Of a stretch of 64,000 nucleotides of DNA, positions 21,237 through 25,574 are shown piece after piece; the first letter of the stretch is position 1; each line of letters starts with the position of its first letter. Below the pieces are notes generated by a model. That model had not been told where the DNA came from and ran no database searches. It was given only the letters and a program-made list of their open reading frames with translations. The translations under genes and the position numbers were made by a program. This DNA comes from Micromonospora sp. NBC_00421 (GTDB lineage: Bacteria > Actinomycetota > Actinomycetes > Mycobacteriales > Micromonosporaceae): the NCBI RefSeq assembly GCF_036017915.1, contig NZ_CP107929.1:434001-498000 (forward strand), read 5' to 3'.

Positions 21237-22295
21237 TCACGGCCTCCGTGGCTCGAACGGCGGGCGGCCGTTGCCGGCGGCGGGCCGGGGCGTGTCGTAC
21301 CCGGTGGGGCGCTTACGGTCCGGCGGCAGGACCAGCCGGTGCACCAGCTCGGCGACGATCGCGTCGGTGGTGCGGCGGGCCAACTGGGCGTCCGCGGTGG
21401 GGATGATCCGGTGGGCCAGCACCGGCACCGCGAGCGCCTGGAGGTCGTCGGGCAGCACGTAGTCGCGCCCCTCCAGGGCAGCCACCGCGCGGGCCGTGCG
21501 CAACAACTGGAGGGTGGCCCGGGGGGACGCGCCAAGCCGCAGGTCGGGGGCCTCCCGGGTGGCGGTGACCAGGTCGACGGCGTACTGCTTGACGGCATCG
21601 GCGACGTGCACGTTGCGGACGGTGGCGATCAGTTGGCGGACCGTGTCGGCGTCGGAGACCGGCCGCAACTCCTGGAGGGGGTCGGCGGCGCCGTGTCCGT
21701 CCAGCATGGCCAGCTCGGCCTCCGGGCCCGGGTATCCCATCGCGATCCGGGCGGTGAACCGGTCCCGCTGTGCCTCCGGGAGGGGGTACGTCCCCTCCAT
21801 CTCGATCGGGTTCTGGGTGGCGATCACCATGAACGGCGTCTGGAGCTGGTAGGTGACCCCGTCGACCGTGACCTGCCGCTCCTCCATGCACTCCAGCAGG
21901 GCGGACTGGGTCTTCGGCGAGGCCCGGTTGATCTCGTCGCCGACGACCAGGTTGGCGAAGACCGCGCCCGGCCGGAACTCGAAGTCGTGCGTCTCCTGGT
22001 TGTAGACGCTGACCCCGGTGACGTCGCTGGGCAGCAGGTCGGGGGTGAACTGGATCCGCCGCACCGAGCAGTCGATGGACCGGGCGAGCGCCTTGGCCAA
22101 CTTGGTCTTGCCGACCCCGGGGACGTCCTCGATCAGCAGGTGACCCTCGGCGAGCAGGACGGCCAGGGCGAGCCGCACCGTGGCTGTCTTGCCCTCGATG
22201 ACCTGCTCGATGTTGGCCACGATGGCCTCGCTGGCGGCGCGGAACTCGTCGTGCGGCAGCACGCCGCCCACCTCGTCCCAGGTCTGTTGTGTCAC
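21237..22295 (-). CDS. MoxR family AAA+ ATPase
   Basis: A 352-aa MoxR-type AAA+ chaperone. Walker A is IEDVPGVGKTKLAKALA, Walker B is LVVGDEINRASPKTQ, and MVIATQNPIEMEGTYPLPEAQRDRF gives sensor 1 and the arginine finger region. The first gene of the triad, it presumably remodels complexes containing the DUF58 and transglutaminase-like partners. GTG 22295 follows GAGGAGAAGG. A TAGCCT box on the minus strand at 22406-22401 may be its promoter, giving a leader of about 100 nt. Confidence 0.93.
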   Translation of the reverse strand: MTQQTWDEVGGVLPHDEFRAASEAIVANIEQVIEGKTATVRLALAVLLAEGHLLIEDVPGVGKTKLAKALARSIDCSVRRIQFTPDLLPSDVTGVSVYNQETHDFEFRPGAVFANLVVGDEINRASPKTQSALLECMEERQVTVDGVTYQLQTPFMVIATQNPIEMEGTYPLPEAQRDRFTARIAMGYPGPEAELAMLDGHGAADPLQELRPVSDADTVRQLIATVRNVHVADAVKQYAVDLVTATREAPDLRLGASPRATLQLLRTARAVAALEGRDYVLPDDLQALAVPVLAHRIIPTADAQLARRTTDAIVAELVHRLVLPPDRKRPTGYDTPRPAAGNGRPPFEPRRP

Positions 22296-22400
22296 GGGCC
22301 TTCTCCTCGTCGCGACGGCAGCTCGGAAAAGAGCACCTGGACCCGTCCTTCGGTTCGCAACGGGAAGCCTCGTCTGCCGCAGGAATCGCACTGGCCTCTC

Positions 22401-22555: not shown

Positions 22556-22561
22556 TACACT
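22556..22561 (+). promoter_or_regulatory. -10 box (TACACT) of the leuS leader
   Basis: TACACT is 7 nt before the leader-peptide ATG, so transcription would begin at or next to that ATG and the leader peptide would be translated from a leaderless message. Confidence 0.65.
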
Positions 22562-22568
22562 GCCGGAC

Positions 22569-22607
22569 ATGGCCGGAGTCTTCCTGCTTCTTACCGGGCC
22601 GTGCTGA
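22569..22607 (+). CDS. leucine-rich leader peptide (12 codons) of leuS
   Basis: ATG 22569 to TGA 22605-22607 encodes M-A-G-V-F-L-L-L-T-G-P-C. Three consecutive leucine codons (CTG, CTT, CTT at 22584-22592) stand out because CTT is rare in this G/C-ending genome. The stop codon lies inside the left arm of a hairpin that leads to an intrinsic terminator ahead of leuS. This is the layout of a ribosome-stalling attenuator that senses charged tRNA(Leu). Proposed from sequence alone. Confidence 0.75.
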   Translation: MAGVFLLLTGPC

Positions 22608-22657
22608 TGCGCTGACGCGCGACAGCACGGCGGCCCCTCCTGCGCGAGGGGCTTTTT
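22596..22657 (+). promoter_or_regulatory. leuS attenuator: pause/antiterminator hairpin plus intrinsic terminator
   Basis: The first hairpin pairs GCCGTGCTG (22598-22606) with CAGCACGGC (22623-22631). The second, GCCCCTC (22633-22639) with GAGGGGC (22646-22652), is followed by five T (22653-22657), a textbook intrinsic terminator. GGGCC (22596-22600) can instead pair with GGCCC (22632-22636), which overlaps the terminator's 5' arm, so an alternative fold that blocks the terminator is available. It lies 53 bp before the leuS start. No T-box consensus is present. Confidence 0.75.
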
Positions 22658-22709
22658 CGTGCCCTGAGCAGGTGCCCCGGATCCGACATGACCGCGCCAA
22701 GGAGAAGCC

Positions 22710-25574
22710 ATGACTGAGGCAGCCGCACCGGCGGGCGACATTCCCCCGTTCCGGTACACCGCGGCCCTGGCCGACGAGATCGAGCGTCGGTGGCAGGACA
22801 CCTGGGCGCGGGAGGGCACCTTCCACGCCCCGAACCCGGCCGGTCCGCTTGCCGATCCGGGCCACCCGCGGGCGGGCGCGGAGAAGCTGTACGTGCTTGA
22901 CATGTTCCCCTACCCGTCCGGTGCCGGGCTGCACGTCGGTCACCCGCTGGGCTACATCGGCACCGACTGTTTCGCCCGTTACCAGCGGATGGCCGGGCGC
23001 AACGTGCTGCACGCGATGGGCTTCGACGCGTTCGGCCTGCCCGCCGAGCAGTACGCGGTGCAGACCGGCACCCATCCCCGGACGACCACGGTGGCCAACA
23101 TCGAGCGGTACCGGGCGCAGCTGCGCCGGCTGGGGCTGGCCCACGACGAGCGGCGCTCGGTGGCCACCATCGACACCGATTTCTACCGGTGGACCCAGTG
23201 GATCTTCCTGCAGGTCTTCAACTCCTGGTACGACTCCGACGCCGCGAGGGCCCGCCCGATCGCCGAGCTGATCGCCGAGTTCGCCGCCGGGGACCGGCCC
23301 ACCCCGGACGGCCGCGCCTGGGCCGAGCTGACCGACGCCGAGCGGCGGCAGATCGTCGACGACCACCGGCTGGCGTACGTCTCGCAGGCGCCGGTGAACT
23401 GGTGCCCGGGGCTGGGCACCGTGCTGGCCAACGAGGAGGTCACCGCCGACGGCCGCTCCGACCGGGGCAACTTCCCGGTCTTCAAGCGCAACCTGAAGCA
23501 GTGGATGATGCGGATCACCGCCTACGGTGACCGGCTGCTGGACGACCTGGACACGCTGGACTGGCCCGAGTCGATCAAGCTGATGCAGCGCAACTGGATC
23601 GGCCGGTCCACCGGCGCGCACATCGACTTCGCGGCCCCGACCACTGGTTCCGGCTCTGCCGGCGAAGCCCGCATCAGAGTTTTCACCACCCGGCCGGACA
23701 CCATCTTCGGCGCCACCTACCTGGTGCTGGCCCCCGAGCACGCGCTTGTCGACGCGCTGGTGCCGGGCACCTGGCCGGCCGGCACCAGGGACGCCTGGAC
23801 CGGCGGGCACGCCAGCCCCCGGGCGGCCGTCGAGGCGTACCGGAAGGCGGCGGCGGCCAGGACCGACGTGGAGCGGCAGGCCGACACCAGGGAGAAGACA
23901 GGCGTCTTCGTCGGGGCGTACGCCACCCACCCGGTCACCGGCGGGCAGATCCCGATCTTCATCGCCGACTACGTGCTGGCCGGCTACGGCACCGGCGCGA
24001 TCATGGCGGTGCCCGCGCAGGACGAGCGGGACTGGGCGTTCGCCGAGGTCTTCGAACTGCCGATCGTGCGCACCGTGCAGCCCGCCGAGGGGTTCGACGG
24101 TGCGGCGTACACCGGGGACGGGCCGGCGATCAACAGCGCTGCGCCCGAGCGTGGCCTGGACCTGGACGGGCTGGGGGTGGCCGAGGCCAAGGCGGCGATC
24201 ATCGAGTGGTTGGAGGCCAACGGCCACGGCGTCGGGGCGGTCACCTGGCGGCTGCGGGACTGGCTGTTCTCCCGGCAGCGCTACTGGGGCGAGCCGTTCC
24301 CGATCGTGTACGACGAGACCGGGGCGGCCATCGCGCTGCCCGAGTCGATGCTGCCTGTCGAACTGCCCGAGGTGGACGACTTCTCGCCGAAGACCTTCGA
24401 CCCCGACGATGCCGACAGCAACCCGGAGACCCCCCTGTCGCGGCGGCGCGACTGGGTCGAGGTGGAGCTGGACCTGGGCGACGGGCCGAAGCGGTACACC
24501 CGGGAGACCAACGTGATGCCGCAGTGGGCCGGCTCCTGCTGGTACGAGCTGCGCTACCTGGACCCGACCAACGCCGACCGGTTCGTCGACGCCGAGAACG
24601 AGCGCTACTGGATGGGGCCGCGCGCCGAGGGCGACTGCGGGGGCACCGACCTGTACGTCGGCGGGGCCGAGCACGCCGTGCTGCACCTGTTGTACGCCCG
24701 GTTCTGGCACAAGGTGCTGTACGACCTGGGGCACGTGTCGTCGTTCGAGCCGTACCGCAAGCTGTTCAACCAGGGCATGATCCAGGCGTACGCGTTCCGC
24801 GACCCCCGGGGTACGCCGGTGCCGGCGGAGGAGGTCGTCGAGGTCGACGGTCGGTGGCTGCACGGCGAGCAGGAGGTCACCCGCGAGTACGGCAAGATGG
24901 GCAAGTCGCTGCGTAACGTGGTCACCCCGGACGACATGTGCGCGGCGTACGGCGCGGACACCTTCCGGGTGTACGAGATGTCGATGGGCCCGCTGGAGGT
25001 GTCCCGCCCCTGGGACACCCGGGCGGTGGTCGGGTCGTACCGGTTCCTGCAGCGGGTCTGGCGGGCCGTGCTCGACGAACAGACCGGCACGCTGCGGGTC
25101 ACCGACGCGCCCGCCGACGCCGAGACCCGCCGGCTGCTGCACCGGGTCGTCGACGGGGTCCGGGTCGACATGGAGGGCATCCGGTTCAACACCGCCATCG
25201 CCAAGCTGATCGAGCTGACCAACGCGGTGACCCGGCTGCCGGAGACCCCCCGCGAGGTGGCCGAACCGCTGGTGCTGATGCTGGCCCCGTTCGCCCCGCA
25301 CGTCGCCGAGGAGCTGTGGCGCACGCTGGGCCACGACACCTCCCTGGCGTACGCGGACTTCCCGACCGCCGACCCGGCCCTGCTGCTCGCCGAGACGGTC
25401 ACCTACCCGGTGCAGGTCAACGGCAAGGTCCGGGGCCGGATCGAGGTGCCCGCCGACGCGTCGCAGGAGGCCGTCCGGGCGGCGGCCCTGGAAGCGGTCG
25501 CGTCCGCGCTGGCCGGTAGGGAACCCCGCAAGGTCATAGTGGTGCCGGGCCGGTTGGTCTCGGTCGTCGCCTGA
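22710..25574 (+). CDS. leuS: leucyl-tRNA synthetase
   Basis: A full-length (954 aa) class I synthetase that charges tRNA(Leu). The HIGH-type motif is [16 protein letters not shown] (about 69-84). The CP1 editing domain spans about 270-480, with threonine-rich [21 protein letters not shown]. The KMSKS-type loop is [16 protein letters not shown], with Gly in place of the first Ser. An anticodon-binding helical domain and a small C-terminal domain ([15 protein letters not shown]) complete it. ATG 22710 follows AAGGAG. It is monocistronic by position, controlled by the leader described upstream. Confidence 0.97.

Follow-up and report, generated by a model that had tools for sequence, protein, structure and literature searches.

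A probable leucine-responsive attenuator with a leaderless-type leader ahead of leuS in Micromonospora sp. NBC_00421 and its relatives

The leuS gene of Micromonospora sp. NBC_00421 is preceded by a short leader frame with three adjacent Leu codons, a hairpin that overlaps the leader stop and an intrinsic terminator. With a probability of about 0.8, this arrangement is an attenuator of leuS transcription that works through a ribosome and responds to leucine, a homologue of the Streptomyces leuL2-leuS element, and it probably raises LeuS production when charged Leu-tRNA is short. Positions given below are those of the window, i.e. the whole stretch of 64,000 nucleotides that was analysed, and the features lie on the plus strand unless stated otherwise.

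Organization of the leader region and its genomic background

The -10 box of the leader promoter, TACACT, was read from the sequence at 22556..22561, and 7 nt lie between it and the leader ATG at 22569, so that the predicted transcript begins at or beside this codon. The leader ORF (22569..22607), which has kin leaders in the family, encodes MAGVFLLLTGPC in 12 codons followed by a stop (ATG GCC GGA GTC TTC CTG CTT CTT ACC GGG CCG TGC TGA). Based on the codon pattern across copies, the Leu codons CTG CTT CTT (22584..22592) are the presumed control codons. The stop codon (22605-22607) falls in the 5' arm of hairpin P1 (GCCGTGCTG, 22598..22606), which pairs with the 3' arm CAGCACGGC (22623..22631) into a perfect stem of 9 bp; both arms were assigned by covariation. 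Flush with P1 in the predicted fold stands the terminator hairpin GGCCCCTC-CTGCGC-GAGGGGCT (22632..22653), with a stem of either 22632-22653, including a basal G-U pair, or 22633-22652, and its T5 tract at 22653..22657. The Shine-Dalgarno sequence AAGGAG of leuS is located at 22699..22704, and leuS itself at 22710..25574, encoding a leucyl-tRNA synthetase of 954 aa (TIGR00396, E=9.9e-264). Over the compared part, this protein has 94% identity with LeuS of Micromonospora cabrerizensis, in keeping with an origin in Micromonospora or close to it. A putative AAA ATPase gene (21237-22391, minus strand) is divergent from leuS and the leader; the label MoxR-like for its product is our own, as profiles gave weak chelatase-type matches only.

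The initial annotation, made from the letters of the DNA, had described a 12-codon frame with three Leu codons, two of them CTT, 7 nt after TACACT, and a leader stop within a hairpin (22598-22631) directly followed by a terminator with five T. All of these are present in the sequence; this observation is confirmed, and the interpretation given to it is partly supported.

In folding of the RNA 22569-22657, P1 and the terminator formed flush with each other and none of 200 shuffled sequences was as stable (z=-4.25), while for the wider RNA 22556-22709 one of 200 was (z=-2.96). No Rfam family, T-box included, matched the window at the gathering score. The background was estimated from 864 kb of the same genome, i.e. 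the window and 40 further stretches. On both strands of this sample, ten leaderless-type short ORFs (6-25 codons, with TAnnnT 6-7 nt before the start) were found, and LLL occurs in the leuS leader only. In the coding-like frames of this sample, 259 of the 13697 Leu codons are CTT (1.9%), as are two of the three Leu codons of the window leader. A covariance model built from 71 members (the window element and 70 relatives) found one copy in the 7.2-Mb genome with E=7.1e-18, the sole other match having E=6.36. The window element is more than a chance arrangement.

Under a strict terminator definition, six terminators were found in the 864 kb, including the one before leuS, which is the sole flush one; no others were found by this definition in the window and 48 loci. 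Looser definitions gave terminator-like sites with a flush stem in 5 of 38 and 12 of 91 cases when the leuS site was excluded, and in 17 of 137 under one further definition that did not exclude it, but this control is weak since many of the loose sites are probably not real terminators.

Conservation of leader, spacing and hairpins

A leader was called where TAnnnT stood 5-8 nt before an ATG or GTG that opened a short frame with LL. It was found upstream of leuS in 79 of the 80 other family genomes fetched (L082-L161), out of 149 such genomes from the family search. The sole fetched genome without it (L128, G030) keeps a -10-like box and a terminator before leuS. Two family genomes, G020 (98% complete) and G038 (94%), gave weak matches to the N-terminus of the window LeuS (E=2.9e-29 and 5.4e-13), which suggests that LeuS has been replaced there by another LeuS or that the assemblies carry a gap.

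Outside the family, 42 of 86 loci of the class (27 + 59, with L182 unparsable) carry the leader, in ten other families by label. It is present in all 15 loci of family f19, 13 of which encode the peptide MRAVRLLLSEPR (the label 'Streptomyces-like' for f19 having been derived from the leader peptide), and in 15 of 15 loci of f20. None was found in the 14 loci of f2, which belongs to the same order, the 5 of f13 or the 13 of f18. Among the named loci L002-L019, 12 of 18 have the leader, including Micromonospora, Catellatospora, Pseudonocardia, Actinophytocola, Saccharopolyspora, Actinopolyspora, Geodermatophilus and Modestobacter, and L020-L024 gave no convincing leader (L020 being unparsable); these counts leave out L025-L081, mostly from other phyla, and named and other genomes may overlap in species. 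Together with the window, 134 copies were recognised (1 + 79 + 42 + 12), which are kin by descent, so that counts over them are not independent events.

At the level of the phylum, the covariance model matched 16 of 246 genomes under strict filters by which weak matches are lost. Two of these matches come from other classes, with the leaders MAAALLLSPPR (G422) and MRWNLLLR (G355), each shortly upstream of a frame that is LeuS-like by reading of its translation. The matches L262, L266 and L267 were left out of the confirmed copies. A degenerate copy in G230 (L265) encodes MASQQQRLIGPR, which has a run of glutamines and just one Leu codon (CTT); this copy retains the linker length, P1 and the terminator. 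The leaders MRAATLLLTGPHRPSRR (L250, G204) and MSTHTLLLGQPR (L251, G294) stand before a distant, shorter LeuS type with 47-48% identity, and the element is thus tied to two LeuS types. The initial annotation had placed a leaderless-type Leu leader and terminator ahead of leuS, and both proved to be conserved within and outside the family.

Of the 134 copies, 125 have CTT and 9 have CTC as their last Leu codon, and the penultimate one is CTC in 67, CTT in 45 and CTG in 22; both vary at the wobble base only. As LL was required by the search, the presence of Leu is partly built into these numbers, while the wobble pattern and the preference for CTT are not. Altogether, CTT makes up 188 of the 400 Leu codons of the leaders, compared with the 1.9% of the genome sample. 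The last Leu codon and the P1 5' arm are separated by exactly 5 nt in 130 of 134 copies, although the linkers take 44 distinct forms. The first base of the stop codon lies at P1+7 in 116 copies and at P1-2 in 14, and a ribosome at the stop would cover the P1 5' arm in both cases. The linker, the leader N-terminus and the P1 loop diverge across families, with the Leu codons, the 5-nt spacing and the stop position kept.

An alignment of the Micromonosporaceae leuS upstream regions, which had been proposed in the initial annotation together with a covariation analysis, likewise showed the Leu codons, the stop position and both hairpins to be kept. The loss of conservation in relatives that the annotation had named as a refutation was thus not observed. 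For the structure alignment, 71 of the 134 copies were picked for diversity, including the f19 copies L180, L205, L209 and L221. P1 was paired in 97.0% of cells, and four of its nine pairs showed double-sided changes. For P1 and the terminator together, 93.1% of cells were paired, as opposed to 36.1-62.3% for slid partners, and 45 cells carried double-sided changes against 14.1 in shuffles. The lowest terminator pairs are looser (75.9% for helix 2). Among the 121 parsed copies, the pair closing the CCCC/GGGG helix is of the Watson-Crick type in 77, where 44 would be expected if the two positions were independent (A-U 38, G-C 28, U-A 11); it is non-Watson-Crick in the other 44, 25 of them with A-C.

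The gap between P1 and the terminator is 0 nt in 60, 1 nt in 30, 2 nt in 35 and 3 nt in 3 of the 128 parsed copies, i.e. 0-2 nt in 125 of 128, and the loop within the unbroken P1 stem spans 9-51 nt. At least four consecutive T after the terminator were detected by script in 121 of 134 copies, and in L147 the terminator and T tract were seen by eye. Of the 12 copies lacking such a run nine are class loci, and the three f29 copies (L172, L194, L214) have no U tract at all.

In 127 of the 134 copies a -10 box was recorded 6 nt (78 copies) or 7 nt (49 copies) upstream of the leader start, and never at 5 or 8 nt, both of which were possible outcomes of a search that allowed 5-8 nt. Only a -10 box is claimed, because at least four of six matches to TTGACA were present at the -35 position in only 24 of 134 copies (two of six in the window) and a sigma-70 promoter scan of the window gave no promoter. 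A tetramer resembling a Shine-Dalgarno site was located 4-18 nt upstream of the leader start in 9 of 134 copies. The 6-7 nt promoter spacing suggests that the leader is transcribed leaderless, as RNA-seq has shown for the S. lividans copy. If this spacing is right, the element would offer a natural system for leader translation without a ribosome site.

Possible action of the leader ribosome on termination

The following course of events is proposed. Transcription would start at the leader ATG, where a ribosome would initiate without a Shine-Dalgarno site. When Leu-tRNA is plentiful, this ribosome would reach the stop inside the P1 5' arm and keep P1 open, so that the terminator would form and transcription would end. 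When Leu-tRNA is short, it would halt at the Leu codons, P1 would fold ahead of it and read-through into leuS would follow. Since the physiology asks that a stall raise leuS, P1 should oppose termination, and formed P1 presumably favours read-through in a response to leucine.

The effect of the ribosome on P1 was modelled by masking its footprint before folding in 133 copies, 108 of which have a third Leu codon. With the A site at the third-last, second-last and last Leu codon and at the stop, the mean probability of P1 was 0.98 (108 copies), 0.69, 0.27 and 0.01, respectively. The contrast between stall and stop held for at least one Leu codon with the 3' edge of the footprint at +10, +12, +13 and +15 nt; at +17 nt P1 was open in all states and the contrast was gone, so the result for P1 depends on the assumed edge of the ribosome. 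In these models the ribosome can plausibly switch P1. The terminator behaved differently from P1. Without a ribosome, both P1 (0.98) and the terminator (0.94) formed, and across all modelled states the terminator had a mean probability of 0.94-1.00, was below 0.2 in 0-4% of copies and was part of the minimum-energy fold in 130-132 of 133 copies (106-107 of 108 when the A site held the third-last codon). For the four ribosome positions given above its mean was 0.97-0.99, and over these and the ribosome-free state 1-4% of copies fell under 0.2. As it is favoured in every state, equilibrium folding gives no switch in the terminator itself.

An upstream region pairing strongly with either terminator arm was likewise not found relative to shuffles in the 132 of 134 copies that could be parsed. 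The largest excess for the 5' arm came from the leader codons (-4.6 vs -3.5 kcal/mol shuffled) and that for the 3' arm from the Leu run (-7.6 vs -5.9 kcal/mol), the terminator's own stability being -14.0 kcal/mol on average. Footprint folds, covariation and arm pairing thus revealed no conserved antiterminator sharing a terminator strand. Such an antiterminator had been part of the initial annotation's interpretation, in which GGGCC (22596-22600) pairs with GGCCC (22632-22636) and excludes the terminator. Both motifs are present in the window and complementary, and GGG before CCG also occurs in some relatives. However, the helix was paired in 51.4% of cells, within the 21.7-53.5% of slid controls, and showed no double-sided change, in contrast to P1; many relatives have CGAGCCG facing CTACCCC or CGACCCC. 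Neither conserved nor covarying, this pairing was rejected as a conserved switch. Given also a terminator with a mean probability of at least 0.94 in every modelled ribosome state and a 5' arm which no upstream region pairs much above shuffles, classical antitermination by these motifs is improbable.

P1 could also aid termination by stacking on the terminator, in which case a stall at the last CTT would open P1, weaken the terminator and permit read-through. Stacking would be possible at the flush junction (0 nt in 60 of 128 copies). With the footprint edge at +12 or beyond, P1 is opened by a ribosome stalled at the last Leu codon, for which 125 of 134 copies use the rare CTT. Against it, the terminator is stable on its own (mean -14.0 kcal/mol) and a ribosome at the stop opens P1 equally, which would make the starved and the fed state alike while the ribosome sits there; the stacking model is therefore unlikely. 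Regulation at the level of translation, by pairing of the Leu-codon run with the leuS Shine-Dalgarno site and its release by a halted ribosome, follows a proposal made for leuA (PMC1262725). In the window this pairing reaches -9.5 kcal/mol, although 12.5% of shuffled runs were as good, and over the 134 copies, with the leuS start picked by script, the mean was -7.50 compared with -7.66 kcal/mol for shuffled runs (mean quantile 0.52). Being no better than shuffled Leu runs, the pairing was rejected, and translational control of this kind is most improbable. Finally, the terminator may be constitutive or a decoy, with the short frame translated but giving no leucine response. According to PMC1262725, changing the leader codons of S. 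coelicolor ilvB had no effect, and with altered codons the attenuator-like ilvB and leuA leaders of this organism did not show the behaviour of classical attenuators. At leuS, many families retain the Leu codons, the 5-nt spacing and the stop position despite divergence of the linker, the N-terminus and the P1 loop, which makes a decoy quite unlikely, about as much so as the strand-sharing antiterminator.

In the attenuator favoured here, with P1 opposing termination, P1 and the terminator have no bases in common, and the preferred guess is that P1 acts by steric exclusion where the two abut: its duplex, lying at the terminator base, could occupy the exit channel that the terminator hairpin must invade. 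The steric principle, not the leuS case, is supported by structures of phage P7 antitermination (PMC6624301). In its full form the proposal describes an attenuator without strand competition, in which P1, formed upon a stall at Leu codons fixed 5 nt upstream, shares no base with the flush terminator and physically blocks the closing of its base in the RNA polymerase exit channel; it would combine this with a leaderless leader and rare CTT codons and would have governed leuS since before the split of the Actinomycetota classes carrying the element. This combination is offered tentatively and is less likely than not to be correct.

Comparison with known attenuators and leader peptides

Attenuators of leuS were predicted in 2005 for S. 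coelicolor and S. avermitilis and assigned to the classical type (PMC1262725). In S. lividans TK24, the leader LeuL2 was found by RNA-seq to be leaderless, with a hairpin and a U stretch before leuS (PMC8079986). The initial annotation had regarded a leaderless leader in this position as a notable variant, a case which this report from S. lividans had thus already covered. Its LeuL2, given there as MRAVRLLLSEPR, is letter for letter the leader of the 13 f19 loci mentioned above. With leuL2-leuS the window element shares leuS, a 12-codon leaderless-type LLL leader, a hairpin and a U tract, and P1 and the terminator of the f19 copies align with those of the window. The two differ in the end of the leader, which is PC in the window and PR in LeuL2, and in a P1 pair that is U-A in the window where the f19 copies have C-G. 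In view of LeuL2 and the 2005 predictions, the window element can be considered a relative of a known attenuator.

Classical ribosome-mediated attenuation of the trp type provides the general scheme for such elements. Trp-type attenuators have in common with the window element a leader rich in the regulatory residue, an intrinsic terminator and a downstream gene for the same amino acid. In contrast to them, P1 and the terminator of the window are adjacent and not overlapping, no conserved strand-sharing antiterminator is present, and most copies of the leuS leader are without a Shine-Dalgarno site. Actinobacterial trp attenuators have been described (PMC1262725). The LEU element of actinobacterial leuA has been described as a pseudoknot in which the Leu run is paired to the Shine-Dalgarno site (same source), and the leuA leader LeuL1 is leaderless in S. 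lividans and lacks a typical terminator (PMC8079986). A Leu-rich leader ORF is common to leuA and leuS, whereas the Shine-Dalgarno pairing is unsupported at leuS.

Leaderless polycysteine leader ORFs of mycobacteria were reportedly described by Canestrari et al. in 2020. They are likewise short, leaderless-type upstream ORFs with a residue run proposed to control downstream genes, but differ in the residue and in the genes. Related work is found in PMC4633059, and the authors of PMC1262725 detected no conserved terminator hairpins in the mycobacterial cys leaders.

Within the limited collection of literature searched, nothing on leuS was found by title or abstract start for Micromonospora leader peptides or attenuation, and the S. 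lividans report was the only one on leuL and leuS. What is added here is the breadth of the element, the 5-nt ruler, the preference for CTT and the missing strand competition. The flush junction is also described, the comparison with the 2005 paper being one with its text and not its figure. A leuS attenuator known from a few Streptomyces is in this way seen to be widely conserved and to have a ruler that can be measured, namely the 5 nt between last Leu codon and hairpin. It lacks a strand-sharing antiterminator of the kind required by models of attenuation. It makes testable the question of whether a hairpin that abuts a terminator, and shares no bases with it, can decide termination.
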